Below are positions 19,266 to 59,705 of a stretch of DNA of 64,000 nucleotides, one piece after another. Each line of letters opens with the position of its first letter. Within the stretch, counting starts at the first letter, position 1. The notes under the pieces were generated by a model. That model was given only the letters and a program-made list of their open reading frames with translations, was not told the DNA's origin and ran no database searches. This stretch comes from Flavobacterium sediminis. GTDB lineage: Bacteria > Bacteroidota > Bacteroidia > Flavobacteriales > Flavobacteriaceae. Made by a program: the position numbers and the translations under genes. Location of the stretch: positions 124,001-188,000 of the forward strand of contig NZ_CP029463.1 of NCBI RefSeq assembly GCF_003148385.1. The letters are read 5' to 3'.

Positions 19266-20657
19266 ATGATTCCACAAGAAACTATCGTTGCCTTGGCTAC
19301 ACCTTCCGGTGCCGGTGCTATTGCTGTTATCCGCCTGTCGGGTAAAGAGGCTATTGCTATTGCGGCACAAGTATTTCAATCGGTTTCCGGTAAAGAACTG
19401 AGCCGACAAAAGACGCATACAATCCACTTAGGACATATTACAGACGAAGGAAAGGTTTACGATCAGGTTTTAGTATCTATCTTTAAAGGACCACATTCGT
19501 ATACCGGCGAAAATGTGGTTGAAATTTCCTGTCACGGTTCTACTTTCATCCAGCAGCAGATCATTCAATTATTGCTTCGTAAAGGAGCCAAAATGGCTCA
19601 GGCAGGTGAATTTACCTTACGCGCTTTTTTGAATGGAAAACTGGATCTATCACAAGCAGAAGCTGTAGCTGACCTTATTGCCAGCGATAATGAAGCGAGT
19701 CACCAGATTGCCATGCAGCAGATGCGTGGTGGTTTTAGTAATGAGATTGCCAAATTGCGTGAAGAATTACTCAATTTTGCTTCCTTAATTGAATTGGAAT
19801 TAGATTTTAGCGAAGAAGATGTAGAATTTGCAGACAGAACGGCTTTTCATGAACTCTTAAACCGCATTGAATTTGTTTTAAAGCGTTTAATCGATTCGTT
19901 TGCTGTGGGGAATGTGATTAAAAATGGTATTCCGGTAGCAATTGTGGGCGAACCCAATGTAGGGAAATCGACTTTATTGAATGCCTTGCTGAACGAGGAA
20001 CGCGCTATTGTTTCGGACATTGCCGGAACGACCCGTGATACCATTGAAGACGAATTGGTCATCAACGGTATTGGTTTCCGATTCATCGATACGGCCGGAA
20101 TCCGAGAAACAAAAGATCATGTGGAAAGCATCGGGATTCAGAAGACTTTTGAAAAGATCGAACAGGCTCAGGTTGTCCTTTTTTTGGTTGACAGTTCTCA
20201 GCTAACAGTTGATAGCTTAGAACCTCTTAAAAATGAAGCCGAGCGTATCAAAAATAAATACCCGCAAAAAGCACTGTTGGTTTTATTTAACAAAAAAGAT
20301 TTATTGTCGGAAGAACTGATTTCGGATCTGAGATCTCAAATTCCGAATAGTCTATTCATTTCCGCAAAAAATAAAGAGGGTATTGACGAACTGAAGAATG
20401 CTTTGCTTTCGTTTGTGAATACAGGTGCCTTGCGCAACAATGAAACCATTGTTACCAATACGCGTCATTATGACTCGTTGTTAAAAGCACTGGAAGAGAT
20501 CCAAAAAGTAAAATGGGGTTTAAATGCCGGTATTTCATCGGACTTAATGGCGATCGACATCCGCTCGGCATTACATTATTTTGGTGAGATTACGGGCGAA
20601 GTGACCAATGATGAATTACTAGGTAATATTTTTGCTAATTTTTGTATTGGGAAGTAA
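19266..20657 (+). CDS. mnmE: tRNA modification GTPase MnmE
   Basis: A 463-aa protein that, with MnmG, adds carboxymethylaminomethyl groups to U34 of certain tRNAs. The folate-binding N-terminal domain (about 1-120) begins IVALATPSGAGAIAVIR. The G domain has GEPNVGKS (228-235), DTAG (about 276) and NKKD (about 342). The catalytic C-terminus is CIGK (460-463). The codons for FCIGK-stop form the left copy of a 25-bp repeat found again at 22396-22420; the gene is intact. The 3' end of this gene is a known integration site in other bacteria (SGI1 in Salmonella). Confidence 0.96.
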   Translation: MIPQETIVALATPSGAGAIAVIRLSGKEAIAIAAQVFQSVSGKELSRQKTHTIHLGHITDEGKVYDQVLVSIFKGPHSYTGENVVEISCHGSTFIQQQIIQLLLRKGAKMAQAGEFTLRAFLNGKLDLSQAEAVADLIASDNEASHQIAMQQMRGGFSNEIAKLREELLNFASLIELELDFSEEDVEFADRTAFHELLNRIEFVLKRLIDSFAVGNVIKNGIPVAIVGEPNVGKSTLLNALLNEERAIVSDIAGTTRDTIEDELVINGIGFRFIDTAGIRETKDHVESIGIQKTFEKIEQAQVVLFLVDSSQLTVDSLEPLKNEAERIKNKYPQKALLVLFNKKDLLSEELISDLRSQIPNSLFISAKNKEGIDELKNALLSFVNTGALRNNETIVTNTRHYDSLLKALEEIQKVKWGLNAGISSDLMAIDIRSALHYFGEITGEVTNDELLGNIFANFCIGK

Positions 20658-20658
20658 T
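20634..20658 (+). repeat. Left copy of an att-like 25-bp direct repeat (mnmE 3' end)
   Basis: GCTAATTTTTGTATTG, then GG, then AAGTAAT. It matches 22396-22420 at 23 of 25 positions (GG versus TA). It spans the last codons and stop of mnmE, the place used by SGI1-type integrases elsewhere. The two copies bracket 1.76 kb of accessory-looking DNA. Confidence 0.6.
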
Positions 20659-20692
20659 TAAAACAATTTGCTTATTCTAAAATTATCCAACA

Positions 20693-20836
20693 TCAAGAAT
20701 TGTATTTTTGATTTAATAATTGTACTATTTGCTCTAATTCCTGAATAGGTAAAATGGCTGCGCATTGGATAGATTGATTATTTGAAGCAGTGAAAATCAA
20801 TACACCTTTTTGTTCTTTTTTAAAACCTAAGCTGAT
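20693..20836 (-). pseudogene. Gene remnant, C-terminal fragment of an unknown protein
   Basis: An open frame of 47 residues ending in TGA with no ATG and a stop just upstream (ISLGFKKEQKGVLIFTA to LNQKYNS). The composition is that of a real protein (a hydrophobic strand, then an amphipathic helix), so it looks like the 3' end of a truncated gene. The family is not recognised. It lies immediately inside the left att-like repeat. Confidence 0.4.
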
Positions 20837-20869
20837 TTAGTAAAAATTGTGTGCTATAATCAGTGATCT

Positions 20870-21505
20870 TTACCTTAATTCCCGTTTACATTTTTCACAC
20901 AAGGCTAAGTCAGCATTATCTATCGTTTTTATAGATTCCACAGCATCAGTCATCACACATTTTTTATCATTACAATGGGGTAATCCTAAATTATGCCCGA
21001 ACTCATGAACTATAATCTTTTTAAAACGGTTAAAATATATTCTTTTATTAGGAGACTGGATTCTAAATGTTGAAATTATGCAACTATTACCCGGACAATA
21101 CGCTAATCCCATAATTCCCCAATCTTCGTATTTGTAAACTGGTTTTTTGATATTTCCATCTTTATCCCTTTTTGTAGTAGAGATATCTTTATTCGTTAAT
21201 CCTAAAACGTATTGTATACTATCTTTTAAATCCATTTTCTGAAATTTAATAATTGAATCTGCTCTGTATCGTGGTGATTTAATTAGAACAAAAGCTTCTT
21301 TATACAATTCTTGATTTTCGTTAATATGAACCTTTACCTCATAGAACTTTTCAAGACACAATTTAGCTGTATCTAATTCAGCTTTTGGAAGTCCTTTATA
21401 CTGCTTTAATAAGACAACTGTATTGGAATCGATTTTGTTTGTACAACCCGAAAAAAGCAGCAACATTACGCTGCAAATCAAACTTAAAAAATATTTTTTT
21501 TTCAA
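20870..21505 (-). CDS. Archaemetzincin-like zinc metalloprotease, predicted lipoprotein
   Basis: A 211-aa exported protein. Lipobox LLFSGC with C21 as the lipidated residue. The zinc site is H167-E-F-G-H171-N-L-G174-L-P-H177-C178, then C183, M185 (the Met-turn CVM), and after exactly 17 residues C203-E-K-C206. This spacing reproduces the full archaemetzincin (peptidase M54) signature, including the four-Cys second zinc site, rather than the simpler matrixin pattern. Archaemetzincins are usually cytosolic; a lipid-anchored form is unusual. No neighbour suggests a substrate. It lies within the mnmE repeat-flanked patch and is followed by no clear terminator. Confidence 0.82.
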   Translation of the reverse strand: MKKKYFLSLICSVMLLLFSGCTNKIDSNTVVLLKQYKGLPKAELDTAKLCLEKFYEVKVHINENQELYKEAFVLIKSPRYRADSIIKFQKMDLKDSIQYVLGLTNKDISTTKRDKDGNIKKPVYKYEDWGIMGLAYCPGNSCIISTFRIQSPNKRIYFNRFKKIIVHEFGHNLGLPHCNDKKCVMTDAVESIKTIDNADLALCEKCKRELR

Positions 21506-21546
21506 ACCATGCTTCTTACAATATTACCAATATGAATTAGAAATAA

Positions 21547-22158
21547 TTATTCTGAAATAATATTAACAATCCTTTCCCAATCTTTATATCCAAAATAAAT
21601 TTTAATTGGAAGAATACTAGCTATTTCTCTATTCTCTTCAATAAATTTAGGAAAACAATAAGAATCTAACTTAGTATCCTTTCTAAAGTTTTCAGGCACA
21701 GTTATAAACTCTTCTTTTTTCCTATTTTCAAAAGAATAATAACTTCCTGAAAAATTAAAATTCCAATCTAAAATTTGTCCTTTAGCAAACTTTTTTCTCA
21801 TTATTGGGTCAATATGTTTAAGATCTCTATTATTGAATAATAATTTATTTCGTTCTAAAAAAAGGCTTGAAGCCAATTCTCTATATTCTGCCTCATATTT
21901 TTTAAAAAAACTCAAATTTTTCAGAACTTCTTCTTTAGTAATTTTCTTAAAAATAGAGATACTTTCATCAACAGTATCTATTTCAATCGAATAGTCTAAA
22001 AACCTTTCTTTCCACTCTTCTGCTTTTGTCTTCTTTTCTGGCGAACTAAACTTATCATAATAAATTATTAATTTATCTCCCCTATTTAATTTAAACAATA
22101 CACTTTCAGATGGGAAATCCTCAATTGACTTTATAACAGTGATATTTTTATTTTCCAT
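21547..22158 (-). CDS. Hypothetical protein, 203 aa
   Basis: I do not recognise this protein. It is cytosolic by appearance (no signal peptide or membrane segment), Lys/Glu-rich, with a predicted alpha/beta N-terminus (about 1-70), a helical middle (KKITKEEVLKNLSFFKKYEAEY) and an aromatic-rich C-terminus (LDWNFNFSGSYYSF; KIYFGYKDWERIVNI). The coding sequence is more AT-rich than the housekeeping genes nearby, which fits an accessory origin. It lies 41 bp upstream of the archaemetzincin-like gene on the same strand and may be co-transcribed with it. Confidence 0.65.
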   Translation of the reverse strand: MENKNITVIKSIEDFPSESVLFKLNRGDKLIIYYDKFSSPEKKTKAEEWKERFLDYSIEIDTVDESISIFKKITKEEVLKNLSFFKKYEAEYRELASSLFLERNKLLFNNRDLKHIDPIMRKKFAKGQILDWNFNFSGSYYSFENRKKEEFITVPENFRKDTKLDSYCFPKFIEENREIASILPIKIYFGYKDWERIVNIISE

Positions 22159-22252
22159 ACTAATTATAATTCAACAATATACTTCAAATTTGAATATCTT
22201 TTAAAATTAATATTCACTATTCGGCTCAAAATAAGTTTTATTATTTAAATTT

Positions 22253-22384
22253 TTAAATAAAATCAACCTGATTGGAGAAATTAAAAGGGGGTTCACTAGT
22301 GTTGTAATTTTTGCTTTTGTTCATAAAAAAATCGAAAATAAAATTAGTAGTCAATTTTGTACCTCCGTTTGCGACATCCTGTAA
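22253..22384 (-). pseudogene. Short open frame, possible gene remnant
   Basis: A minus-strand frame without a start codon, reading YLQDVANGGTKLTTNFI to SNQVDFI and ending in TAA. The residue pattern looks protein-like but is too short to assign. It sits just inside the right att-like repeat and may be a scar of an earlier gene. Confidence 0.25.
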
Positions 22385-22395
22385 ATACTACCATC

Positions 22396-22420
22396 GCTAA
22401 TTTTTGTATTGTAAAGTAAT
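22396..22420 (+). repeat. Right copy of the att-like 25-bp direct repeat
   Basis: GCTAATTTTTGTATTG, then TA, then AAGTAAT; 23/25 identical to the mnmE 3' end at 20634-20658. Read as codons it would give NFCIVK-stop, so it is a copy of the mnmE terminus with the catalytic Gly codon altered and no gene upstream. Confidence 0.6.
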
Positions 22421-22438
22421 GTTTTAGCTCTTTAGAAT

Positions 22439-23260
22439 TCACTCCTCTAAACTATTTCTCCCGTTCATTCCTTGTATAATTTCTTGAGCCAATGTATAGG
22501 GAAAGATGTTCATTGTAGCATAGAATTCCAGTTTATTGTGATCTAGTACTTGAGCTCTGGCTGTTTTATAATCTGAATCAGATAGATCAATAATATCTTT
22601 TTTGGAATAAACCCTTTTTATTTCCTTGTTGTTCTTATCGAACAAATTTTGAAAATGCTTTCTGTTGTGCTCAAAATTAAATGATGTTGCATCAGAAAAA
22701 ACAAAACACCTTATGTATAAATCTAAATATTCTGAAAATCGGATCTCTTTATCTTTGAATTTATCAAAACCGTATATTTGAGTAATCCATAGATTCAGGG
22801 TTTTGTTTTCAATTCCGAATTCTGTTGCAATTTCGTCTCTTGAAACTTTGATAACAGTATCCATTTTCCTGAGCAATAAGTCTTTGGTCAAACGTTGCGA
22901 TCTTTTAATCTTAAATATTTTATTGAAAACATAACGTCCTATTTTTGCTTTTATGATATCTAATCTCTCTAAGGCATATCCTAACTCTTCCTTTTTGAGA
23001 TCTGTCTGCATAACCCAATTTGAAATTTTATCCGTCTGACTATTTCTTTTAAACAATTCGGACAATGTTTCAGTGACAACACAACTAAATAGAAAATTAA
23101 AATCGATTACTACATAATTTGAAGTGTTCCCGATCTCTTCTAATGAACCTATCGGCTCCGTATTTTCACCTGCAATGTGGTAGAGTTCCGATCGGAAATC
23201 CGGATCGTTATAAAGCGACGTTAATTCGGACTGTATAAAATGATATAGTTTTAAAAACAT
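22439..23260 (-). CDS. Hypothetical protein, 273 aa, with a possible HTH segment
   Basis: Not recognised. It is a cytosolic, charged, mostly helical protein. A segment near residues 138-165 (KVSRDEIATEFGIENKTLNLWITQIYG) resembles a helix-turn-helix, so DNA binding is possible but unproven. A conserved-looking C-terminus (YATMNIFPYTLAQEIIQ) follows. The gene begins 10 bp after a terminator-like hairpin (23270-23312), leaving little room for a separate promoter. It lies just outside the right att-like repeat. Confidence 0.65.
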   Translation of the reverse strand: MFLKLYHFIQSELTSLYNDPDFRSELYHIAGENTEPIGSLEEIGNTSNYVVIDFNFLFSCVVTETLSELFKRNSQTDKISNWVMQTDLKKEELGYALERLDIIKAKIGRYVFNKIFKIKRSQRLTKDLLLRKMDTVIKVSRDEIATEFGIENKTLNLWITQIYGFDKFKDKEIRFSEYLDLYIRCFVFSDATSFNFEHNRKHFQNLFDKNNKEIKRVYSKKDIIDLSDSDYKTARAQVLDHNKLEFYATMNIFPYTLAQEIIQGMNGRNSLEE

Positions 23261-23269
23261 ACGAATGCA

Positions 23270-23312
23270 AAAAAGGAGTTTTTAATAAAATTAATCAAAA
23301 ACTCCTTTTTTC
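23270..23312 (-). terminator. Terminator of the 47-aa small protein gene
   Basis: Long A/T-flanked hairpin: aaaaaggagttttt and its complement aaaaactcctttttt separated by about 13 bases, with T-runs in both orientations. It lies just after the stop at 23316. Confidence 0.75.
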
Positions 23313-23315
23313 TTT

Positions 23316-23459
23316 TTATTTTTTACCCTTATATTCCGGATTGTTAGGGTTTAATTGATTAGAACGATTGTCTAATTGTGCCTGATACGTTTCATTTGTA
23401 CCTGATGTACCTTTGTTAGCATTGTGACTGTCCGCATTGTGATTTTTTGTTGTACTCAT
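23316..23459 (-). CDS. Small hydrophilic protein, 47 aa
   Basis: A short gene with ATG at 23457-23459 and TAA at 23316-23318. The protein is very hydrophilic and Asn-rich (MSTTKNHNADSHNANKG at the start, RSNQLNPNNPEYKGKK at the end) with no Cys, Trp or hydrophobic core, so it is probably disordered. A -7 box TATCTTTG lies on the minus strand at 23487-23494 and a strong hairpin follows the stop, so it looks like a complete monocistronic unit. I believe similar short proteins occur in other flavobacteria; the function is unknown, perhaps stress related. Confidence 0.65.
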   Translation of the reverse strand: MSTTKNHNADSHNANKGTSGTNETYQAQLDNRSNQLNPNNPEYKGKK

Positions 23460-23677
23460 AACATTACGATTTTAAAAATTATACTACAAAGATAAATGTA
23501 TGCTAAAATTAAATGCTAAACAATCCCTTTTAGATAAATAAAACACTATTTAACAAACAATTACAAATCAAATACTGTTTTAATCAGGTACAACTAAATA
23601 GAAGCATTCCGGTTTACCGAATCACAACGTCAAACCTTTTTCTATTCAATGGTTTTCAAGTGTTGCCCTACCGCATT

Positions 23678-24283
23678 TCAGCCTCTTAAGCTGTCAATAG
23701 TATACAGATCCTTTCTTTCGTTTGCTGAGAGATTTTTTATCTCATATTTCATTTCCATTATTTGACTCGGATGAGAGAAACAAAAGAAAACCAACTTTTT
23801 CTTAAAAAGGCCTTTTTCTATTTTTTTAAAAAAGACGTTAAATTCTATATCCGTTTCCTTTACTTGTTTAAGGGATTCATCTAACATTGCTTTCAGCTTA
23901 TTCGATACACTCTCAACCACTTGATCGTTCAATTTGTTGTCGAAAATGTGAATTTTTTCAACTAACTCAGGATAAGAATGGACTTCCCGGTATATATAAC
24001 CGTTTTTCTTAAATTCATTCAGGGTTTCTGCTTTCCGCTCATCTTGCTCATCTGAAACTTTTACTTCAAACATTAATCGGTTCTCCATATCGTGATAGAG
24101 CAGTCCGGAAAAAATAGTGATCTCTTTGCGACAGTTAGTACACTTTTTACTATTCAGTGTCCCGCTTAAAACCTCTTCTTTTAAATTGGGTTCCAATGTA
24201 ACATTGACTGTCTGATAATATTTGATCTCTTGTATAGCATTACAATGCGGGCAGTTTTCCTGTATAACTTTAAATAAACTCAT
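23678..24283 (-). CDS. CpXC domain-containing protein
   Basis: A 201-aa protein starting at the ATG 24281-24283 (MSLFKVIQENCPHC); a longer frame adds 37 unconvincing residues. Two CxxC pairs, C11/C14 and C48/C51, form a zinc-ribbon-like site, and the text between and after them (NLKEEVLSGTLN; LLYHDMENRLMFEV) matches the CpXC domain. The C-terminal half (about 100-201) is Lys/Glu-rich and helical and unassigned. No function is established for CpXC proteins. A -7 box TATATTTG is at 24329-24336 on the minus strand. Confidence 0.75.
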   Translation of the reverse strand: MSLFKVIQENCPHCNAIQEIKYYQTVNVTLEPNLKEEVLSGTLNSKKCTNCRKEITIFSGLLYHDMENRLMFEVKVSDEQDERKAETLNEFKKNGYIYREVHSYPELVEKIHIFDNKLNDQVVESVSNKLKAMLDESLKQVKETDIEFNVFFKKIEKGLFKKKLVFFCFSHPSQIMEMKYEIKNLSANERKDLYTIDSLRG

Positions 24284-24592
24284 CTTGTTTTTACCATTTA
24301 AAAATAGTGTGTCCCTTTTTCTTATTGCCAAATATATACCTCTTTTCTGTAAGAACAGAAAATTTGTTATTGTAAAGATAGGATTTGTACACAATTATTC
24401 TTTATCCGATGTAAAAATGTACAAATTCAACTTTATCTGATCTGATTTTTGTATTGAGCATTCTTCTCTTCTTTTATCCAACACCTTTTAAGCCCTAAAA
24501 AACAACCCCAAAAGAATCAGCCTGTGCACGATCCTTTTGGGGTAATTATCTTTTTTATCCTTTTTTTCTATCGAAAAGAGAAAAACATATTT
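24284..24592. other. Intergenic region upstream of the CpXC gene
   Basis: About 309 bp without a gene. It holds a minus-strand TATATTTG box (24329-24336) for the CpXC gene and the SprF-gene terminator at 24503-24545. I see nothing else supportable. Confidence 0.5.
24503..24545 (-). terminator. Terminator of the adhesin-SprF operon
   Basis: Stem ccccaaaagaatc / gatccttttgggg (24507-24519 and 24530-24542, one mismatch), with a T-rich tract on the minus strand. It lies about 50 bp after the SprF-like stop at 24593. Confidence 0.8.
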
Positions 24593-25468
24593 TTAAAATT
24601 CAAAACATATTCCCAGTTCGTGGGTTCCGTTCTCATACTTGTTTATGTTTGTAACATTCGATTCAAAAGCATAGCTCAACTGCAAGCGGTTTTTTATCTT
24701 AATATTGAATAAGCCTCCTACAGCGCGGTCTATTCTGTAATTTGCTCCGAGATCGAGAACATCAAAAAAGTTAAACGTTCCCGTTACGTCGGTAATGGTT
24801 TCTTCGCTCGAATAGCGAACCAATGTTGAGGGGATGAACTTTATCTGATCGCTGATCGTAAAATTATAACCACCGCTTATGTAAAGCTGCGCTTTATTAT
24901 TAGCAGTCGTGGCAATTCCGTTCTTATCGGCTACCCGATCCGTTTCAAATATTCTGGGAACAGACAGTGACGCAAAATAGTTGTCGTTCTTCAGATAAAA
25001 ACCGGCTCCTATGTTCGGATTAAAATAATTGGTGTTCTGAGATAAGAACGGATCTGCCGGTAAATTCAACCGTTCAAAGTCAATATTCACAAATGTTCCT
25101 CCTGCCTGAACTCCGAACAATACATCCGTAGACTCGCTGATTTTTAACGCATAAGAAAAACTACCGAACAAAGAGGTTGTTCGCTCAATGAACACTTTGT
25201 CTGCTATAACAATTCCGCCAATGCTGATCTTGTCATTAACCGGGACCGACAAATTCAGGCTTTGTGTTTCAGGTGCTTCTGCAATACCGATGAACTGACT
25301 TCTGAAATTGGCTCTGACCGTAGCGCGTTCATCAAGTCCGAATGCTGACGGGTTAAAAAAACTGGTATTGTATCGGTACAGAGAATAACTCGGTTCTGCT
25401 TGTGCTAAAACTTTTAATGATGATGTTAAAAGCAATAGTATTAAAAATAATAATTTATATAATTTCAT
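24593..25468 (-). CDS. PorP/SprF family type IX secretion system membrane protein
   Basis: A 291-aa outer-membrane beta-barrel protein with a signal peptide (1-22, ending KVLAQ). The beginning AEPSYSLYRYNTSFFNPSAFG and the alternating aromatic/polar strands are typical of PorP/SprF. Members assist secretion or surface retention of proteins with type B T9SS sorting domains (SprF for SprB). It lies 12 bp downstream of a large adhesin that carries exactly such a domain, so it is probably its dedicated partner. Confidence 0.92.
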   Translation of the reverse strand: MKLYKLLFLILLLLTSSLKVLAQAEPSYSLYRYNTSFFNPSAFGLDERATVRANFRSQFIGIAEAPETQSLNLSVPVNDKISIGGIVIADKVFIERTTSLFGSFSYALKISESTDVLFGVQAGGTFVNIDFERLNLPADPFLSQNTNYFNPNIGAGFYLKNDNYFASLSVPRIFETDRVADKNGIATTANNKAQLYISGGYNFTISDQIKFIPSTLVRYSSEETITDVTGTFNFFDVLDLGANYRIDRAVGGLFNIKIKNRLQLSYAFESNVTNINKYENGTHELGICFEF

Positions 25469-25480
25469 TTTATTGATTTA

Positions 25481-28400
25481 TTAGTAATTTATATACAACC
25501 ACCCTTTAAGGTATAAGGAAGCATCTCCGAAAACATCAATACTGTAAAAGTAAGAGCCCACCGGTACTAAGTCTCCCGTTCCGTTTCTATGGCCGTCCCA
25601 ATCGTTTTGATAATTTACCGTATGGAACACCGCTACCCCATTCCTGTCAAAAACTTCAATCTTTGCTTGAGGATAATTGGTGATATTTTCAATTACCCAA
25701 GTATCGTTCTGACCGTCATTATTAGGCGATAAACCTAAAATAGGGGTAATATCAGGGTTTTGCTCAGCATCACAAGGATCAGCTATATGGTCCATATCCC
25801 TATCCGGTCCCGTAAAGCTAACGGTTGCATGTGCCTGGCTACTGTTACCGCTTGCATCTGTTAGGGTTAGTGTCACCATTTCAGCTTCGTCAAGTCCCGG
25901 ACAGTTAAAAGAACTCATATCCAAAGACATACTTACGATACCACAATTATCATAACTTCCGTTATCGATCATTTCAGGCGTAATAAAAGCACTCCCTGAA
26001 TTGTCTAATTGTACGGTAATATCTTGTGTTATCACTACCGGATCAATAGTGTCTTCAACCGTTACCAAAGCAGTAGTACTATCGCTATTGCCCACACCGT
26101 CAGTAACGGTCAGAACTACAGTGACCGGTGTCCCTATATCCGAGCAATCAAAAGAAGTTCTATCCAGTTGCCAAGAAGCAATAGTACAGTTATCGCTACT
26201 TCCGTTGTCGATCATTGCCGGTGTAAGGGTTGCATTGCCGGAAGCATCTAAAGAAACCGTAATATCCTGAGCAATAGCAACAGGACTTTCAACATCAGTC
26301 ACTGTTACTACTTGCGTACAAGTTGCCGTGTTCCCTGCTCCGTCCGTAGCTGTCCAGGTTACAGTAGTGGTTCCGATCGGAAAAGCCGTCGGTGCATCAT
26401 TGGTTACTGTTGGGGTACCGCAATTATCCGTGGCTGTAGCCGTTCCTATGGATGCTGTAGCCGTACATTGACCCGCAGCTGCATTGAGCGTAATCGCTCC
26501 CGGACATGTAATTACCGGATCTTCGGCATCGGTCACGGTTACTACTTGCGTACAAGTTGCCGTGTTCCCTGCTCCGTCCGTAGCCGTCCAGGTTACAGTA
26601 GTGGTTCCGATTGGAAAAGCCGTCGGTGCATCATTGGTTACTGTTGGGCTACCGCAATTATCCGTAGCTGTAGCGGTTCCTATGGATGCTGTAGCTGTAC
26701 ATTGACCCGCATTTGCATTGAGTGTGATCGCTCCCGGACACGTGATCACAGGGTCTTCGGCATCGGTCACGGTTACCAGTTGCGTACAAGTTGCCGTGTT
26801 CCCTGCTCCGTCCGTAGCTGTCCAAGTAACGGTAGTGGTTCCGATCGGAAAAGCCGTTGGTGCATCATTGGTTACTGTTGGGCTACCGCAATTATCCGTA
26901 GCTGTAGCGGTTCCTATGGATGCTGTAGCTGTACATTGACCCGCATTTGCATTGAGTGTGATCGCTCCCGGACATGTAATTACCGGATCTTCAGCATCGG
27001 TCACGGTTACTACTTGCGTACAAGTTGCCGTGTTCCCTGCTCCGTCCGTAGCTGTCCAGGTTACAGTAGTGGTTCCTATCGGAAAAGCCGTCGGTGCATC
27101 ATTGGTTACTGTTGGGGTACCGCAATTATCCGTGGCTGTAGCCGTTCCTATGGATGCTGTAGCCGTACATTGACCTGCAGCTGCATTGAGTGTAATTGCT
27201 CCCGGACATGTAATTACCGGATCTTCAACATCGGTCACTGTTACTACTTGCGTACAAGTTGCCGTGTTCCCTGCTCCGTCCGTAGCTGTCCAGGTTACAG
27301 TAGTGGTTCCGATCGGAAAAGCCGTCGGTGCATCATTGGTTACTGTTGGGGTACCACAATTATCCGTGGCTGTAGCGGTTCCTATGGATGCTGTAGCCGT
27401 ACATTGACCTGCAGCTGCATTGAGTGTAATCGCCCCCGGACATGTAATTACCGGATCTTCAGCATCGGTCACGGTTACTATCTGTGTACAGTTACTTATA
27501 TTCCCCTGCCCGTCATCTATGGTCCAGTTCACTGTTGTGTCCCCTATAGGATAAGTCCCTGATGCATTGTTCGTTCCTGTATAATCATTTACCGCTGAGG
27601 CTCCGCATGTAATGGTACCATTCGTCCAAACTGTCGAACTGTCCATATTATTCAAAGTACAATCATAACCGTTTCCGGTTGCATCAGCTGCGGTAAGGCT
27701 TCCGCTTGTTTCATCAAAATGATAATAAGCTATTAATCCGGTGCTTGTTTCAGGTATACAAGTATTCATTGAGCCTACAATCTCCGAATTACTTCTTAAG
27801 GTATCCCATATCCGGAATTCATCTATTTTTCCGTTAAAAACCTGCATCCCGTCACTTCGGCTACCTATCGTCATCCGATTGTTAGTTCCTAATGAACTTG
27901 AACCTCCTGAAATAGAAGGTGCAAGTGTTCCGTTTATCAGTACTTGAATAGCCTTTGTGGAAGCCACCCAGCGAAATGCAATATGTGTCCACTGATTTAG
28001 GGAAACTACTGTTTGCGTGTTTGTACTATAAACAGTAGAATTGTCTCGTACAAAAACATATACTACACCGGAGGAATTGATTAAGATCGTCATAAAATTG
28101 AATTGATCGTATTGTGCAAAAAACACACGTCTTGAAGATCCGTGAGACGACGGATTAACCCAGGTCTCTACTGTAAAATCAGTCGTTCCTATAGCAGCAA
28201 ATGCTGTAGGCAGCGTGGCTGACAGATAATCGTTTGTTCCGTCAAAGGCAATTGCATTACCCGAAACATCATAATCCGGAAGTACAACATTTGCCTGACA
28301 TTGCCCCGCATCGTTATTCACCGTCACATTCCCGGGACAGGCTAAGTTTATCAAATTATAATTTTCCGCTCGGTCATGGATTTGCGAAGCGGTTGCATGA

Positions 28401-28489
28401 GTACTCATAGCGGGATGGGATTTGGTTTGAGCAACTACCATTACCTCCATAAGTGACACAAGGGTATACAACAATATTTTAATTTTCAT
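25481..28489 (-). CDS. Large HYR/LamG adhesin with T9SS type B sorting domain
   Basis: A 1002-aa secreted surface protein starting at the ATG 28487-28489 (MKIKILLYTL). Signal peptide about 1-21. A LamG/concanavalin-like domain (about 85-290) is inserted inside the first HYR-like domain, whose halves are NLACPGNVTVNNDAGQC and YPIGDTTVNWTIDDGQGN. Five near-identical 78-residue HYR repeats follow (about 345-735; DPVITCPGAITLN to TQVVTVTDAE), then two Ig-like repeats (DITVSLDASGN; DITVQLDNSGS), a short Asp-rich DMDHIADPCDAEQNPD linker and a type B C-terminal domain (about 913-1002; LSPNNDGQNDTW to GWLYINY). Likely an adhesin displayed by the T9SS with the adjacent SprF-like partner. Confidence 0.92.
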   Translation of the reverse strand: MKIKILLYTLVSLMEVMVVAQTKSHPAMSTHATASQIHDRAENYNLINLACPGNVTVNNDAGQCQANVVLPDYDVSGNAIAFDGTNDYLSATLPTAFAAIGTTDFTVETWVNPSSHGSSRRVFFAQYDQFNFMTILINSSGVVYVFVRDNSTVYSTNTQTVVSLNQWTHIAFRWVASTKAIQVLINGTLAPSISGGSSSLGTNNRMTIGSRSDGMQVFNGKIDEFRIWDTLRSNSEIVGSMNTCIPETSTGLIAYYHFDETSGSLTAADATGNGYDCTLNNMDSSTVWTNGTITCGASAVNDYTGTNNASGTYPIGDTTVNWTIDDGQGNISNCTQIVTVTDAEDPVITCPGAITLNAAAGQCTATASIGTATATDNCGTPTVTNDAPTAFPIGTTTVTWTATDGAGNTATCTQVVTVTDVEDPVITCPGAITLNAAAGQCTATASIGTATATDNCGTPTVTNDAPTAFPIGTTTVTWTATDGAGNTATCTQVVTVTDAEDPVITCPGAITLNANAGQCTATASIGTATATDNCGSPTVTNDAPTAFPIGTTTVTWTATDGAGNTATCTQLVTVTDAEDPVITCPGAITLNANAGQCTATASIGTATATDNCGSPTVTNDAPTAFPIGTTTVTWTATDGAGNTATCTQVVTVTDAEDPVITCPGAITLNAAAGQCTATASIGTATATDNCGTPTVTNDAPTAFPIGTTTVTWTATDGAGNTATCTQVVTVTDVESPVAIAQDITVSLDASGNATLTPAMIDNGSSDNCTIASWQLDRTSFDCSDIGTPVTVVLTVTDGVGNSDSTTALVTVEDTIDPVVITQDITVQLDNSGSAFITPEMIDNGSYDNCGIVSMSLDMSSFNCPGLDEAEMVTLTLTDASGNSSQAHATVSFTGPDRDMDHIADPCDAEQNPDITPILGLSPNNDGQNDTWVIENITNYPQAKIEVFDRNGVAVFHTVNYQNDWDGHRNGTGDLVPVGSYFYSIDVFGDASLYLKGWLYINY
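26288..27457 (-). repeat. Five tandem 234-bp repeats encoding HYR domains
   Basis: Exact 234-bp periodicity, five copies (boundaries at 27457, 27223, 26989, 26755, 26521, 26288), each 78 codons. Copies differ at few positions, some shared between pairs (NANAGQC in copies 3 and 4), showing recent duplication or gene conversion. Such arrays can change copy number by recombination. Confidence 0.93.
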
Positions 28490-28966
28490 GATTGGTTTTA
28501 AGTTTATCAATTAGTCTCATAATAAAATTTAAGTACGACTATTCCTTATCAGGTAATCTGCGGAATGGCCTTACTTTTCAAAAAACGTCAGACGTTAAAA
28601 GGAGCTGTTCTCTCGTAAAAGAGTTCCTATTCGGATCGTCCTACGGATCAAAAAACACCCCGAGCCGGTTGGCGGACTGCTCTTAACTCAACTTCGTGTT
28701 GCCACCTTATAAGTACAGGCAGGTCATACAGGATACTACGCAAACTATTTCTCATCATAAATAGGATTTAATTTCAACTACAAGATTAAGACAATCAGGA
28801 ATGCTAAAACATACGTGGAACGTGCAAATATTACGTAGGGTACTTAGTTAATTGTAACTTGAAAAATCCGGAAAAAATACATTCTCCATTTTTGCTATAA
28901 CTTTTGTGGCAAAATTTTTGTTTGGAAAAAATGTGAAAATATTTCGTTCAAAAAATTTGTCAAATT
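28490..28966. other. Long intergenic region between the adhesin and HTH genes
   Basis: 477 bp separate the divergent genes. The part at about 28560-28740 is richer in GC than its surroundings and contains short inverted repeats (aacgtctgacgtt followed by T on the minus strand at about 28582-28596). It may be a structured leader of the adhesin mRNA. No known riboswitch or promoter was recognised. Confidence 0.4.
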
Positions 28967-29479
28967 ATGAAAGATAGATCAAGCTTAAGCGGAACATTAG
29001 GGTTATCCCAACATGAGATAGCTTTGCTTTTAGGGATCAGCAGAAGTCAATGGTCAATGTTTGTGAGCGGAAAACGTAATTTACCTTTAACTGCTAAAAA
29101 AAAGCTTATGGCTATTCTTATTTATCTGCAACAGCTAAAAGAGAAGGATATCTTCAATACCAAAAAATTATTGCAGACAGATCAAAGGAAGAATGGAGAA
29201 TTAGTATTACAGCGAAAGTTAGAGAGACTAAGATACGAACAACTGCTTCTGGAAAAGAAAATAGCGGTATCGGAACAAAAACGGGCTAAAAATCTGGCTG
29301 CTTTGCACGTTATCCGATTTTTAGAAATGCAGAAAAAGGATCCTGCCTCTTTATTAAAGAATATTCGGGACAAAGTGGAACGCAATCTGGCAACAGAAAA
29401 TATCCGACGACTTGATCGCTTGCGGCTTAGATTGGAAGCAGTGATAACGTTGCAGAATATTATTCAGGGGAAGATGTAA
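28967..29479 (+). CDS. Helix-turn-helix (XRE-like) protein with coiled coil
   Basis: A 170-aa protein. The N-terminus has an XRE-type HTH (about 10-45: LGLSQHEIALLLGISRSQWSMFVSGKRNLP). The rest is charged and helical, with a probable coiled coil (about 70-110, RKLERLRYEQLLLEKKIAVSEQKR). It is divergent from the adhesin operon across 477 bp, so control of that operon is a fair guess from position only. It ends before a strong terminator and is monocistronic. Confidence 0.82.
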   Translation: MKDRSSLSGTLGLSQHEIALLLGISRSQWSMFVSGKRNLPLTAKKKLMAILIYLQQLKEKDIFNTKKLLQTDQRKNGELVLQRKLERLRYEQLLLEKKIAVSEQKRAKNLAALHVIRFLEMQKKDPASLLKNIRDKVERNLATENIRRLDRLRLRLEAVITLQNIIQGKM

Positions 29480-29515
29480 TAAAACCGTTTGCTGAATTAA
29501 TGAGTATACTATATC

Positions 29516-29546
29516 AAAAAGTCCCGGAAGTTTCCGGGACTTTTTT
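29516..29546 (+). terminator. Terminator after the HTH gene
   Basis: Stem gtcccgga / tccgggac (29521-29528, 29533-29540) with flanking A- and T-runs; it can act in both directions. Confidence 0.85.
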
Positions 29547-29610
29547 AACTTAACCAAATACATGACTTTTCAATAAAAAAATCTGATCGTTTTATACTGT
29601 ATACAGTTCG

Positions 29611-30825
29611 TTACATCGCATTAGCGCAATCCATCAATTGTCCGTAAGGCATTTGTCCGTGTATGATTCCGCCAAATTGAGAACTTCCGTAACCGCTTCC
29701 GTTGTATTCCTGTTTGATCAAAAATCCTTGTAACATACAATCTTTGTTTTTGTTCTTTTCGGTAAAGGATCCTTTTATCCAACGGTATAAAATATGCCCT
29801 GTATATTTATTCTTAACAATAGACCAGTCGCTAGATTCTATGTTCAGTTTTAACAATTGAGCACCGTCTCTAGCTATTGTTTCTTTTACTTTGGCTATGG
29901 CAAAGTTTTTCAACTCGCTATTTCCATTCATGGTTCCGGCTTTAGGCATTTTTATACTCGCCATACTTGCTTTTGCGGCTTTGTCGTAATTGGCTTTTAA
30001 AGTAGCTTCAAACTCTTTTACAATCGGTTTGGCTTTTTCTAACCATTCCAAATGAAATTGTTGGTCACCTTTTCCCACGATATTCATAATGGTAATATCG
30101 TCTTGATCCATATACGAAGGAACATTAAAAGCATGTCCTCCTTGATGCGAACCTGCATAGATGACAAATACATCTTCTGCTATCAGCATTCCTCTGGTTA
30201 AAACCGGCATTCCGGTTCCTAATTCCATAGTTTGAGATCTGTCAGCTCCTATTTTGGTAACATAAGAACCTGAAACCAATTCGTACCCGATATAACCATC
30301 CGGCGACATCATTTCTAATTCGGGAGTGGTCAAAAATCGCAGCCAGGCATACTCTGTATCTTGCTTAGGCAAAATATCGACATTATCTCCCCTATCGGTC
30401 ATTTGTCGTCGTAATTTAACCTGGTCTACCGCATAGCTGTTAACTCCTGAAGACATCCCGAATGTATAGGAAAGATACAAGAAGCCTTCATCAGAATCAG
30501 CAGTATTAACGATAGCGTTTGACTTAGATTCTTTTGCTTTTTTCTCCAGGTATTTCTGATAGTACAAATCTTGCTTTGCTTGATCATTCGGATACTTTTT
30601 CTCTAATTCTTTTTTAAATTCTTCATCTGAATATTCTGCAGTAGAACGCTCTGCCATTCCTGCATTTGAAGACGAATCAGAACCGGACGAAGATGTTGTA
30701 GTATCCGCTGAATTTATTTTTTTCTCAACGGCTTTTTTTGCCTTGTCTTTTAACATCTTTCCAAATTGTGCCTGACCGGTCAATGAAGCAAGAGAAAAAA
30801 ATAAAATGCTATAAAAAACTTTCAT
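29611..30825 (-). CDS. Hypothetical secreted protein, 404 aa
   Basis: Not recognised. Signal peptide 1-19 (ending LTGQAQ), then FGKMLKDKAKKAVEKKI, a Ser/Asp-rich linker (about 38-62) and a charged helical region. The body (about 105-404) has mixed strands and a late C-terminal YGSSQFGGIIHGQMPYGQLMDCANAM. No sorting domain is present, so it is likely periplasmic or outer-membrane associated. It is 15 bp downstream of a lipoprotein gene on the same strand and probably co-transcribed. Confidence 0.75.
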   Translation of the reverse strand: MKVFYSILFFSLASLTGQAQFGKMLKDKAKKAVEKKINSADTTTSSSGSDSSSNAGMAERSTAEYSDEEFKKELEKKYPNDQAKQDLYYQKYLEKKAKESKSNAIVNTADSDEGFLYLSYTFGMSSGVNSYAVDQVKLRRQMTDRGDNVDILPKQDTEYAWLRFLTTPELEMMSPDGYIGYELVSGSYVTKIGADRSQTMELGTGMPVLTRGMLIAEDVFVIYAGSHQGGHAFNVPSYMDQDDITIMNIVGKGDQQFHLEWLEKAKPIVKEFEATLKANYDKAAKASMASIKMPKAGTMNGNSELKNFAIAKVKETIARDGAQLLKLNIESSDWSIVKNKYTGHILYRWIKGSFTEKNKNKDCMLQGFLIKQEYNGSGYGSSQFGGIIHGQMPYGQLMDCANAM

Positions 30826-49602: not shown

Positions 49603-50163
49603 ATGGCGAGATATTCTGTTGTTATCCAACCCGGCGATTTGTGCATTGAACAAATCAGACAGATGAAAGAACAACTGGCCGTTGAGATCGGTTGGTATAA
49701 CAGTAAGAATTCATTAGCACATATCACCGTAAATGAATTTGAAAAAGACGAAAAAGAACTTGAACAAATTAAAAACAAGCTTTCCGACATTGCAAAATTT
49801 TTAAAAGCACAACCCGTCAAATTTGATCATTTCAATACGTTTTCTAACGGTGCATTCTTTTTGGCTCCCGATGACGATTCGAAACGGTATTTAAAAGAAA
49901 TTATGCTTGCTGTTCATCAGCAGTTTCCCTACCCTATAAAAATAAAAAGTAACGAGCCTCATATTTCCATCGGGCGTCGAATTACTCCTGAAAATCTTGC
50001 AAAAGCCGAAGCATTATTTCAGGAAAAACCAAACCTTAGTTTTCTTTGTGATAAGATCGCTTTGCGCATTTTTAATGAAGAAAGAAAACAGTTCGATATT
50101 TTGGAAACCTTTCCCTTTTTAGACGAAAAAAAATCCCGATTGATTCAAGGCAGCTTATTTTAA
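49603..50163 (+). CDS. 2'-5' RNA ligase/2H phosphoesterase family protein
   Basis: A 186-aa protein with the two HxT/S motifs of the 2H superfamily: H40-I-T42 (AHITVNEF) and H120-I-S122 (PHISIGR). Members hydrolyse or join 2'-5' or cyclic phosphodiester bonds in RNA or nucleotides. Length matches LigT-like enzymes. The substrate is unknown. Four bases after the YqaE gene, then 48 bp to the SseB gene. Confidence 0.88.
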   Translation: MARYSVVIQPGDLCIEQIRQMKEQLAVEIGWYNSKNSLAHITVNEFEKDEKELEQIKNKLSDIAKFLKAQPVKFDHFNTFSNGAFFLAPDDDSKRYLKEIMLAVHQQFPYPIKIKSNEPHISIGRRITPENLAKAEALFQEKPNLSFLCDKIALRIFNEERKQFDILETFPFLDEKKSRLIQGSLF

Positions 50164-50211
50164 GCAGTGATTAAAAATATGTAGTTTTGCAACTTCTTAA
50201 ACGAATTTAAA

Positions 50212-50649
50212 ATGAGTACTACCCAACCCGAAATGGAATTTCAACCGAATAATACCAACTTATTAACTTGTATAAAAGCTTTTCGAGAGAACCAAAACCA
50301 AGACACTTTTATGGCTGTTTTGAACGAATTGCAAGGCAATAATGCTTTTTTACTCATTCCAACCACAGAACCTATTGTCGGTAAAGATAGAAATGAAGAA
50401 GGTTGGTCCACTATCGAAAAGGGAACTCAAATGTCATTTACCTCTGTTTTTGAAGTCGACGGACAAAAAGTATTAGGTGCTTTTACTTCTCAGGAAAAAT
50501 TAATGCATTGGGCAAACGAAACCAAACCCTTTGCTTCGCTTCCTGCAAAAGATATATTGGAAATTGCCATGCAAAATGACATCGAGCGTATTGTGATCGA
50601 CAGCAACCAAGAGACGATGTTTGTTTTGGGCAGAAGCATCGCAAAATAA
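50212..50649 (+). CDS. SseB family protein
   Basis: A 145-aa cytosolic protein with the SseB N-terminal-type domain (FMAVLNELQGNNAFLLIPTTE; VLGAFTSQEKLMHWA; DIERIVIDSNQETMFVL). Family function is unclear (SseB was named in E. coli as an enhancer of serine sensitivity). A -7 box TAGTTTTG lies at 50182-50189. It ends one base from the convergent methyltransferase gene. Confidence 0.82.
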   Translation: MSTTQPEMEFQPNNTNLLTCIKAFRENQNQDTFMAVLNELQGNNAFLLIPTTEPIVGKDRNEEGWSTIEKGTQMSFTSVFEVDGQKVLGAFTSQEKLMHWANETKPFASLPAKDILEIAMQNDIERIVIDSNQETMFVLGRSIAK

Positions 50650-50650
50650 A

Positions 50651-52240
50651 CTATCCTTTGAGCAAATTAATACTAACCGTTGCGTAGTCTGCTTCCGGAT
50701 ATTTTTTGAAATACAAAGAATCGGGTTGTAAACCGGCTTCGGCTGCAATTTTGTGTAAAACATCAATTTCAACAATAAATTGATCAGAGAAACCATGCGT
50801 AGCATCATACGCCGTTGCGGCTGTTTTTCCTCTATTTTGCGCGGTTAATTGTGGTGCAATCGTATGCAATTCTATGATTAAAAGTCCGAACTTTTTCACA
50901 TAAGGCGACCATTTTTTAAAATGTTCAAACAGGTTTTCTTCTACCAAATTATTGGAAATTCGGGCGCCGCGATGTGCAAAAGCTCCGGTTGAAGTAGAAA
51001 CCCGACTTGGATTGCTATTCTTTGGATTTTCCCAAATGCGATTATGGTCTAAAAAGGTACGAACGTTCAGCAAATCGGCTAAATCAATCGTGTAATTTTC
51101 TTTTAAATCTTTGGCTAACAAATCGGGTTGACCAATATCACCCCAAACCACTTTTGCCCAAATATCGGCTTTTATCAAATTGGCACGAGTTACTTTCAAA
51201 GCCGCCTGATTGTAATCGGCTCCTACTAAAAACAACGGGTAATCGTCTAACAGTTTGCCGCGTAAGGTTTGGCGTTCAATCACTTCAAAAATATGTTCCA
51301 AAAAAGCACCGTTTCCACATCCCATATCCAAAATACCTTTGGGCTGCTCCTGTATCGGTTTGTTGAATAACTCGATAATAATATCATCAATCACTTTAAA
51401 ATAGGTAGAATGCGCTCCACCACTACCCCAAACATTCATTTCCCGATTCACGTGCTTTTCTTCTTCATGAACCGCTATTTCCCGTAAAACCGATGCATTG
51501 CCAAACAACATTTGGTTCAGGTTCTTAAACATGGGCAAATACGAAACTGTCACTCCGTAAGCAGTTGCTCTTTTAGCAAAAAACAAACCGGTTTCCGTAA
51601 ATTGATAATTTCCGTTTTTTCGGCTAAACCAATCCAACGAAACAAAGAAATCCAAGATCACTTTGAACGCTTCCGGTTCTTTGTGAAATTCTTCTGCACT
51701 GAAAGACGTTTCCATAAAATATTTATGAAACATTCCCGTCATTCCTAAACTCACCGCAATGGGCGCTACCAAATAACCTTCTAAATGTTTAACAATTTGT
51801 TTTTGAACCTCCGTTTGTGCCAAAGCTTTCTTTTGATGATAATCGTCAAACAAATTTTGCAATCGGGATAAATGCTCACTCGTGATCTTTACTGAAGTAA
51901 AAAAATCGGTTTCTTCTAACATTTTAACCGTAGCTTCGTACCAATGAAAATGAGCAAACGCTTCTTTGGAATTGGCATTCAAACTAATCGTGATGACTTC
52001 TTTTGCTGTATCTAAATGATAGTCCAAAAAACCTTGCGAAGCCAAAACCCGTAAAGCCACATTCAGATATCCTTCATTGGCGTTAAACTGTTCGGTAAGC
52101 TTTTGTAAATCGACAGACGTTTGATCGAGCAATTCTTGTAAAACACCACTTTGTAATAAATAATACGCCGTAGGCGCAGTAACCAATCCGTCTAAATGCA
52201 GGAAAAGATGTTGGCGTAAATCATTTTTATGGACAATCAT
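50651..52240 (-). CDS. Class I SAM-dependent methyltransferase with N-terminal winged-helix region
   Basis: A 529-aa protein starting at the ATG 52238-52240 (MIVHKNDLRQHLF); a longer GTG-initiated frame would start inside the upstream terminator. The N-terminal half (about 1-260) has two winged-helix/O-methyltransferase-dimerisation-like segments (HLDGLVTAPTAYYLLQSGVL; HLEGYLVAPIAVSLGMTGMF). The catalytic domain follows, with motif I GILDMGCGNGAFLEHIF near residue 305 and LVGADYNQAAL. It resembles AprA-related methyltransferases, but I cannot confirm. The substrate is unknown; no biosynthetic cluster surrounds it. Confidence 0.8.
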   Translation of the reverse strand: MIVHKNDLRQHLFLHLDGLVTAPTAYYLLQSGVLQELLDQTSVDLQKLTEQFNANEGYLNVALRVLASQGFLDYHLDTAKEVITISLNANSKEAFAHFHWYEATVKMLEETDFFTSVKITSEHLSRLQNLFDDYHQKKALAQTEVQKQIVKHLEGYLVAPIAVSLGMTGMFHKYFMETSFSAEEFHKEPEAFKVILDFFVSLDWFSRKNGNYQFTETGLFFAKRATAYGVTVSYLPMFKNLNQMLFGNASVLREIAVHEEEKHVNREMNVWGSGGAHSTYFKVIDDIIIELFNKPIQEQPKGILDMGCGNGAFLEHIFEVIERQTLRGKLLDDYPLFLVGADYNQAALKVTRANLIKADIWAKVVWGDIGQPDLLAKDLKENYTIDLADLLNVRTFLDHNRIWENPKNSNPSRVSTSTGAFAHRGARISNNLVEENLFEHFKKWSPYVKKFGLLIIELHTIAPQLTAQNRGKTAATAYDATHGFSDQFIVEIDVLHKIAAEAGLQPDSLYFKKYPEADYATVSINLLKG

Positions 52241-52301
52241 AGCATGCTTTTTCTCAAAGTTAGTGATTTTTTTAATTGCCTTTTCAGATTTTATCTCTAA
52301 C

Positions 52302-52330
52302 AAAAAGCTGTCTGTTTCCACAGACAGCTC
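52302..52330 (-). terminator. Terminator of the copA-AKR operon
   Basis: Stem agctgtctg / cagacagct (52306-52314, 52321-52329), six-base loop, T-run on the minus strand, 24 bp after the aldo/keto reductase stop. Confidence 0.85.
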
Positions 52331-52353
52331 TTTATATTTTATAGTTCAGAATT

Positions 52354-53298
52354 TTACAAACTGCTAGTATCTAGCAATTGTAGATCTTCTGCATCCAATT
52401 GTAATTCAGGTGCATCAAACAAAGTTTGTAGTTGATTTTGACTCGTTGCACTAACAATAGGTGCGGTAATTGAAGGGTGAGCCAATAACCAAGCTAAAGC
52501 TACTGTTGCCGGTTGGCTGTTGTGTTTAGCTGAAACCTCATCCAATGCTTTTAAAACCGCTAAGCCTTTGTCGTCCATATATTTTCGAACGCCTTCTCCT
52601 CTGACACTTTTACTGAAATCAGCCTCTGTTCTGTATTTTCCGGTTAAGAATCCTGCGGCTAATGCCCAATACGGAAAAACACTCAAATTGAATTCTTTGA
52701 CCAAAGGCTCATAATCGCTTTCAAATTTTTGACGTTCCACTAAATTATAATGTGGTTGTAAAGCCACATATTTCGGAAAGCCATTTTTTTCGGCTACGTC
52801 AAATGATTCGCGTAAACGTTCCGGTGAAACATTAGACGCCGCTATGTAACGAACTTTTCCGGCTTTTACAATTTCGGCATAGGCTTCCATCGTTTCTTCA
52901 ACCGGTGTTGTGTCATCATCAAAATGCGTATAATACAAATCAATGTGATCGGTTTGTAAACGTTGTAACGATTCGTCCACGGATTTTAAGATATGCTTTT
53001 TACTGATGTCAAATCCATGTTCTTTGGTTTGCGAACCTACTTTGGTTGCAATCACCATTTCGTTGCGGTTTCCGCGTTGTTTCATCCAATTTCCGATGAT
53101 GGTTTCCGATTGCCCTCCTTTTCCGTTTACCCACCATGAATAGGTATCGGCTGTATCAATAAAATTGAAACCCTTGTTGTGAAAGGCATCTAAAATAGAG
53201 AAAGATTGTTTTTCGTCGAGTGTCCAACCGAATACATTTCCACCGAAATTAATCAGTGCAATTTCTAAATCGGTATTTTTAATTATTATTTTTTTCAT
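52354..53298 (-). CDS. Aldo/keto reductase
   Basis: A 314-aa NADPH-dependent TIM-barrel reductase. The catalytic tetrad residues D48 and Y53 lie in FIDTADTYSWW, the Lys in VIATKVGS (about 84), and the His in LYYTHFDDDT (about 125). The family reduces aldehydes and ketones. It is 19 bp downstream of copA on the same strand and before the operon terminator, so it probably shares the copA promoter; a link to copper or electrophile stress is inferred. Confidence 0.93.
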   Translation of the reverse strand: MKKIIIKNTDLEIALINFGGNVFGWTLDEKQSFSILDAFHNKGFNFIDTADTYSWWVNGKGGQSETIIGNWMKQRGNRNEMVIATKVGSQTKEHGFDISKKHILKSVDESLQRLQTDHIDLYYTHFDDDTTPVEETMEAYAEIVKAGKVRYIAASNVSPERLRESFDVAEKNGFPKYVALQPHYNLVERQKFESDYEPLVKEFNLSVFPYWALAAGFLTGKYRTEADFSKSVRGEGVRKYMDDKGLAVLKALDEVSAKHNSQPATVALAWLLAHPSITAPIVSATSQNQLQTLFDAPELQLDAEDLQLLDTSSL

Positions 53299-53317
53299 AT
53301 GATCTATAAAACTCTGA

Positions 53318-55813: not shown

Positions 55814-55871
55814 GGTTAGCTTTTTAGAATTTCGTTGTAACGAAATGTTTTAGGTTGAAAAACTATTCCCT

Positions 55872-55902
55872 CAAAGTTACCAAAAATGAAACAGCCTGAC
55901 AA
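55872..55902 (-). promoter_or_regulatory. Promoter of copA
   Basis: Minus strand TTG (55900-55902), 20 bp spacer, TAACTTTG (55872-55879), about 58 bp before the copA start. No clear copper-repressor box was recognised. Confidence 0.65.
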
Positions 55903-55927
55903 AAATTTAGCGTTCTGTTAAGATTAT

Positions 55928-55964
55928 AAAAAAACACCGCTTCTTTAATTTTTTGAAGCGGTGC
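55928..55964 (-). terminator. Terminator of the DoxDA gene
   Basis: Stem caccgcttc / gaagcggtg (55935-55943, 55955-55963) with a T-run on the minus strand, just after the stop at 55970. Confidence 0.85.
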
Positions 55965-55969
55965 ATTTA

Positions 55970-56983: not shown

Positions 56984-57047
56984 ATACTCTTGATTTTATT
57001 ATTACTCTTTTTATCTCCCTAAGAATAGGGATAATCCAGGGTTCTAA

Positions 57048-57419: not shown

Positions 57420-57446
57420 TCAATTACAAGTATTTGCTTTTTAATT

Positions 57447-57959: not shown

Positions 57960-57967
57960 ACAAAAGT

Positions 57968-59608: not shown

Positions 59609-59631
59609 CCTGTGTATTTTTATAAGGATAA

Positions 59632-59663: not shown

Positions 59664-59705
59664 TTATTAACAGTTTTTATTGGTTTATAACAGCCGAAAC
59701 TATCA

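Follow-up and report, generated by a model that had tools for sequence, protein, structure and literature searches.

A putative left-truncated integrative element at the 3' end of mnmE in Flavobacterium sediminis

The mnmE locus and the bracketed patch

The window analyzed here is a 64,000-nucleotide stretch of the Flavobacterium sediminis genome (contig NZ_CP029463.1, positions 124,001 to 188,000, forward strand). In it, the gene mnmE (window positions 19266 to 20657, + strand; 463 amino acids) is followed by a patch of 1.77 kb (20658 to 22420) that ends with a second copy of the last mnmE codons. The gene was assigned from the list of open reading frames (ORFs) and from its homologues, which are 78 to 90% identical in most genus genomes searched, and its 3' end is the predicted attachment site of an integrative element. 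GC content is 27% in the patch, 40 and 36% in the two preceding 1-kb steps, and 31 and 35% in the two following ones.

A repeat search of the window recovered the direct repeat of the mnmE end described in the initial annotation: positions 20634 to 20658 and 22396 to 22420 are identical at 23 of 25 positions, with a spacing of 1762. None of 2,000 simulated 5-kb stretches (first-order Markov, modeled on the 5 kb after mnmE) reached this value, the best simulated match being 21/25. Searching the 3,441,304-bp genome with the core pattern AATTTTTGTATTGNNAAGTAAT gave two exact matches, both at this repeat pair, and four others with three mismatches each. The pair is real and not a product of chance. 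Its left member contains the putative core of a left attachment site (attL), TTTTGTATTGGGAAGTAAT (20640 to 20658, + strand), which consists of the last mnmE codons and the stop codon and was delimited from the repeat, the genus core pattern, and the sequence. The corresponding core of a right attachment site (attR), TTTTGTATTGTAAAGTAAT (22402 to 22420, + strand), was predicted from the repeat, the genome pattern search, and the attR models described below. GCTAAT, which lies ahead of the core within the 25-bp match, may be part of the attR arm instead of a copy from mnmE. No tRNA gene was found in the window, and a tRNA was rejected as the integration target.

Two cargo genes, both on the - strand and both recognized initially, lie between the cores. 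The first (20870 to 21505; 211 amino acids) was assigned from the ORF, Pfam, NCBIfam, and the sequence to the M54 archaemetzincin-like lipoproteins, with the HEFGHNLGLPHC motif and a lipobox. Its product matches Pfam Peptidase_M54 at 1.1e-15, has a lipoprotein signal, and scores 104 bits against the NCBIfam archaemetzincin model, under the model cut-off of 145. Homologues were found at 1e-6 in 41 of the 150 genus genomes, with a single copy in the genome of the window. In 8 of the 14 relatives compared, the same neighbor gene stands beside the homologue, and this neighbor is not mnmE; the window copy is therefore out of place. A DNA query with the neighbor gene from G012 gave no native M54 locus in the genome of the window, a negative that carries no weight with this kind of search. 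The second gene (21547 to 22158) is AT rich and encodes a 203-amino-acid protein that homologue alignment suggests to be a divergent relative of DUF6896 proteins: 8 of the 11 aligned family members match DUF6896, and the window protein does not. The gene was first described as unknown, and it has no match in Pfam, NCBIfam, PHROGs, or PADLOC. It is matched in 10 of 398 genus genomes, its own included, and its product has two database homologues (88 and 55% identical). A role in Rhs immunity was considered and dropped, since no Rhs gene was seen by eye beside the homologues, without a family search of the neighbors.

Motif, ORF, and family scans of the left end of the patch (20659 to 20869) found no left-arm TTGTACC pair, helix-turn-helix (HTH) gene, or integrase gene. 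Its one open stretch, 47 codons at 20693 to 20836 (- strand), is a candidate remnant with no significant match, and the two gene remnants proposed initially were not confirmed beyond this candidate. The ORF scan of the patch agreed with the initial annotation that no integrase is present (no integrase-like ORF at E 0.01), and no transposase gene was recognized in the patch.

The second copy as a right attachment site

In several genomes among the matches listed, a second copy of the core TTYTGYATHGKNAARTA lies downstream of mnmE on the same strand. Most of the second cores inspected are preceded by a pair of TTGTACC repeats (a few of them TTGTTGC-like) and then by an AAACCC..TAAA-like stretch; the fetched sites that do not have this arm layout are those of genomes G087 and G079 and two of G007. 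The second copy in the window follows the layout of the relatives' far ends, with a putative right arm (22340 to 22401, + strand) that contains a single TTGTACC at 22357 and CCTGTAAATACT and was assigned from the sequence, the attR models, and the arm comparison.

A hidden Markov model (HMM) trained on 14 other attR sites, with the window left out, matches positions 22353 to 22419 at E 1.9e-5 and the mnmE end at E 0.15. A second model, R1, was built on sequence alone from 17 attR sites, again with the window left out. Among its 34 hits in the genome (to E 10), the window site ranks first (E 2.3e-4), and the next two hits, one of which is mnmE, have E 0.019 each. A third attachment site copy near 24441 (18/25) was rejected because it is absent from these 34 hits. 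The 62 nucleotides ahead of the core were also compared, at fixed position, with the arms of 27 relatives (27 of 30 fetched loci had a recognizable core) and were closer to them than were GC-matched window segments, of which 1 in 4,000 was equally close by the mean of all arms and 4 in 4,000 by the best eight. The second copy is predicted to be an attR site because the preceding bases resemble the right arms of integrase-bearing islands and because the best genome hit of R1 lies there.

Of 46 left ends of integrase-bearing islands (a few genomes being counted twice, as two collections were used), 42 have some arm motif; in 32, two TTGTACC repeats stand 11 bp apart at 110 to 146 bp past the mnmE stop codon. 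In the window, the left-end HMM matches nothing outside the core region. The attL core itself would be kept by selection on mnmE.

Integrase-bearing islands behind mnmE in Flavobacterium

In 8 of the 21 mnmE loci of the first relatives (the eight comprising seven from the genus and one from another family), mnmE is followed on the same strand by a gene for a protein of ~190 amino acids and then by one for a tyrosine recombinase of ~380 amino acids. The smaller proteins have an N-terminal Cys motif; both of the two scanned match HTH_17, and the one scanned with NCBIfam matches an excisionase domain model. The two recombinases scanned both have Arm-DNA-bind_5, SAM_5, and Phage_integrase domains.

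The initial annotation had suggested a search for tyrosine recombinases next to mnmE in flavobacteria. With an alignment of the eight recombinases (A1; threshold, E 1e-60), 71 matches were found in 56 of 150 genus genomes; A1 was built from mnmE-adjacent recombinases and is biased to that kind, although whole genomes were searched. mnmE was located in 142 of the 150 genomes, and a join of the coordinates placed a recombinase downstream of it on the same strand in 47, at a distance of 152 to 1330 bp in 46 genomes and 4448 bp in one. The other 24 matches sit elsewhere in the genomes. One of the 47, G122, has a partial recombinase copy with stops. The genome of the window has no A1 match at the threshold; its best recombinase match is at 1.1e-36, and none of its matches is near mnmE. 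Related integrase-bearing islands use the mnmE end in many Flavobacterium species.

The 17.6-kb integrase-bearing island of G127 encodes HTH_17, BT4734-like, and DUF3987/PriCT_2 proteins, together with a type III restriction pair and a Piwi protein. In G048, a recombinase match and an attR hit occur together ~2.6 Mb from mnmE (C1:170894-178619), and the island family is therefore not strictly confined to the mnmE site; this locus is perhaps a secondary attachment site. At locus L109 (G135), 14.1 kb after mnmE, a 27/29 repeat starts within the core and runs rightward, followed by an ORF resembling the HTH gene of the first element, which looks like a second element in tandem. At L086 (G130 C2:2054-2144, + strand), a good attR match lies ~3 kb past the end of mnmE and on its opposite strand, possibly owing to an inversion.

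Right attachment sites and integrase-less patches in the genus

R1 hits at E 0.001 were obtained in 72 of the 150 genus genomes. In 38 of them, an attR site lies downstream of mnmE on the same contig and strand within 200 kb; 11 of these 38 supplied sequences to R1 and match by construction. This census leaves out 13 left-end hits as well as hits on other contigs, on other strands, or far off in 39 genomes, some of which are among the 38. A recombinase is adjacent in 25 of the 38 genomes and not in the other 13, which include that of the window. The nearest attR lies 1.7 to 139 kb from mnmE, and the window distance of 1766 bp is the second smallest after that of G056 (1721 bp). The second core of G087, at +5.7 kb, is a core without a right-arm match and was not counted.

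Thirteen integrase-less patches were examined whole: those of ten of the 13 integrase-less census genomes (for G108 the first island only), G087, and G020 and G021 from other families. Of the other three census genomes, G078 was covered over its first ~19 kb, and G114 and G124 are outside this sample. No integrase-like ORF was found in these 13 at E 0.01, and TTGTACC and TTGTTGC are absent from the first 220 bp of 10 of them, including the window patch; one or the other occurs there in G031, G108, and G121. The G087 patch, which has no right arm, may not be a member of the set. The initial annotation had proposed a check for different cargo in relatives, and such cargo does occur between their mnmE ends and matching attR sites: G056 has two RhuM-family fragments, G084 the N and C parts of HipA, G159 a HipA/HTH module in its second unit, G020 nSTAND3, and G021 TonB_C. 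Small attR-bounded units with no integrase measure 1.7 kb in G056, 2.6 kb in G084, and, between two attR sites, 2.1 kb in G159. The mnmE genes of G031 and G159 are 78% identical, but the two genomes share 4.9 kb of island at 96.9% identity, along with a 291-bp block that extends into attR (98.6%), which points to recent spread to this one site.

Distribution in Bacteroidota

A scan of GTDB contigs with A1 gave at least 476 confirmed places, of which the best 80 were kept. An mnmE-type 3' end lies upstream of the recombinase in 69 of these best 80, as judged by a motif (F, 1 to 3 residues, FC[IVL]GK, 0 to 4 residues, stop) and not by alignment of full mnmE; the other 11 lack the end motif and also gave no mnmE match at 1e-10 in the DNA examined. 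The 69 loci include the labels Flavobacterium, Algibacter, Cellulophaga, Lutibacter, Pontibacter, Mucilaginibacter, Spirosoma, Chryseobacterium, Pedobacter, Bacteroides, and Segatella. Two come from bins labeled outside the phylum (Chloracidobacterium and Methylotenera), which are perhaps misbinned. The use of the mnmE end by these islands appears to extend across the phylum Bacteroidota. In phage and plasmid records, the relatives of the integrase are all below 60% identity (41 and 32 records, respectively).

At gut Bacteroidales loci (L244, L248, L273, and others), a related recombinase starts ~1.2 to 1.5 kb behind mnmE, and the stop codon is often followed closely by TGATTAC or a similar sequence. 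These loci probably represent a separate subgroup of elements.

Origin of the patch

With a probability of about 0.83, the patch at 20658 to 22420 is a stranded right end, derived from an integrative element that inserts at the mnmE 3' end and whose left module was later lost; it is most likely a decayed, left-truncated element. The other cargo found before attR and the recombinases found behind mnmE support the initial proposal that an element integrated at the mnmE end and decayed. The low GC content of the patch, the 13 census genomes with attR but no adjacent recombinase, and the near-identical island DNA of G031 and G159 also speak for this reading. The element would have entered the mnmE 3' end by means of a tyrosine recombinase of the family used at this site across many species of the genus. 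Recombination between attP of the element and attB, the mnmE end, would have kept mnmE whole at attL and would have joined a displaced copy of its end to the right arm of the element at attR. Later loss of the left arm, integrase, and excisionase-like gene, presumably by deletion, would have left two intact cargo genes in a remnant probably unable to excise alone. Compared with the Flavobacterium mnmE-targeting islands as delimited here, the window has an attL core at the mnmE end, an attR core downstream on the same strand, and a conserved right arm before it, weak when the core is left out. Left-arm repeats are not recognized. The patch also has neither a tyrosine recombinase nor an HTH/excisionase gene of its own, and we therefore file it as a remnant rather than as a complete member.

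Several observations weigh against this interpretation. The second core is GTAAAGTAA, whereas mnmE ends usually have GGnAARTA; of the two TTGTACC repeats, only one occurs; once the core is left out, the arm ranks no higher than second among the matches in the window (E 0.88); and the R1 score of the site, 23 bits, is among the lowest in the genus list (best, 78). No intact parent element for the patch and no excision product were seen. Nor was a true empty site with the right flank of the window found, because the flanking gene (22439 to 23260) is matched in only 2 of 398 genus genomes, its own included.

It is possible, but improbable, that the patch is instead a non-autonomous cassette, an integrase-less unit with attachment sites served in trans by the mnmE-specific integrases of other elements, by which small cargo units would be added and stacked behind mnmE. 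The small attR-bounded units of G056, G084, and G159 and the integrase-less island common to G031 and G159 are consistent with such cassettes. However, that island may have come with an integrase that was lost later, and the window patch and nine others of the 13 integrase-less patches lack a left-arm motif over their first 220 bp, so that their attL is probably not a full substrate. A wider form of the same idea, which we likewise regard as doubtful, would make the Bacteroidota mnmE end an accretion site at which one integrase family adds, stacks, and strands integrase-less cargo units in trans. Toxin-antitoxin, restriction, and protease cargo would then circulate in an integron-like cassette economy, with the window holding one of the smallest units.

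Much less likely is an origin of the second copy as a by-product of local duplication, insertion sequence activity, or illegitimate recombination. The right arm is degraded, and the genes beyond the patch also differ from those of relatives, as in a generally unstable region; however, the position and spacing of the arm-like sequence fit the attR of islands in other species, the best genome hit of an independent model is this very spot, and the patch has no recognized transposase gene. Chance similarity, for which the low GC content of the patch and the many weak repeats in the window might speak, is hardly credible given the simulations and the two exact core matches in 3.44 Mb, both at this locus.

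Relation to known elements

The nearest parallel is Salmonella genomic island 1 (SGI1) and its relatives in Gammaproteobacteria, which target the same gene end (the trmE/mnmE/thdF 3' end). SGI1-type elements are described as using a tyrosine recombinase, as being flanked on both sides by short imperfect direct repeats, and as occurring in tandem (PMC2297512, PMC9035990), and a table of elements lists trmE as a target in Salmonella and Vibrio (PMC5704250). In contrast, the islands described here belong to another phylum, the adjacent recombinases have Arm-DNA-bind_5, SAM_5, and Phage_integrase domains and are preceded by an HTH gene, and the window unit has no integrase and two genes only. The likeness to SGI1 suggested by the initial annotation is shown for the target site only, as insertion at this gene end with a direct repeat.

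A cis-mobilizable element (CIME) is defined as one that has lost its integration and transfer genes and has kept attL and attR (PMC5704250). The patch is alike in that no integrase lies between the attL core and attR, its content being two cargo genes with no transfer genes. However, it has cores at both ends with a left arm that was not recognized, and its attL is therefore probably incomplete. PvCTn-like conjugative transposons are reported to enter the ppdK 3' end in Bacteroidota, with the stop codon regenerated and with imperfect direct repeats (PMC11005914); they are alike in entering the 3' end of a protein gene in this phylum, but the target gene differs, and that article mentions neither mnmE nor trmE.

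In the literature searches, mnmE/trmE islands appear in Gammaproteobacteria. No report of the use of the mnmE site in Bacteroidota was seen among the titles and abstract openings returned by full-text searches, whose scope takes in few subscription journals, which is in line with the initial remark that this use is not known to have been described in the lineage. The 25-bp repeat is a marker of an island site in wide use among Bacteroidota that is apparently undescribed there. The pair of mnmE end and attR delimits islands at this site, including integrase-less ones missed by integrase-based searches. The islands looked into carry defense-like and toxin-antitoxin-like genes (G127, G084, G159, and G020) and provide a natural series of intact through decayed elements, all at one site in a conserved gene.

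Flanking region

The genes at 20870 to 30825 have no counterpart in the DNA examined downstream of mnmE in relatives, with one weak exception, the repeat-rich gene at 25481 to 28510, which matches weakly downstream of the mnmE of one relative. The arrangement that would speak against an insertion, the same genes and both repeats in synteny in all relatives, was looked for and not seen. The gene immediately right of attR (22439 to 23260; 273 amino acids) has a product with 15 database proteins related to it, the best at 96%, and may itself be accessory DNA. A defense annotation was tried for four window genes and not retained: PADLOC gave two weak hits for 23678 to 24394 (E 0.01 and 0.025) and none for the other three.

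In G012, whose mnmE is 89% identical to that of the window, homologues of the window genes at 49603 to 63907 begin 3.4 kb after mnmE. The window has 29 kb (20658 to 49600) where G012 has 3.4 kb, and therefore more than the 1.77-kb patch differs between the two. Within this stretch, at 24593 to 28510, a PorP/SprF-family gene lies beside the gene for a 1009-amino-acid repeat-rich protein, with a local rise in GC content to 47 to 50%.

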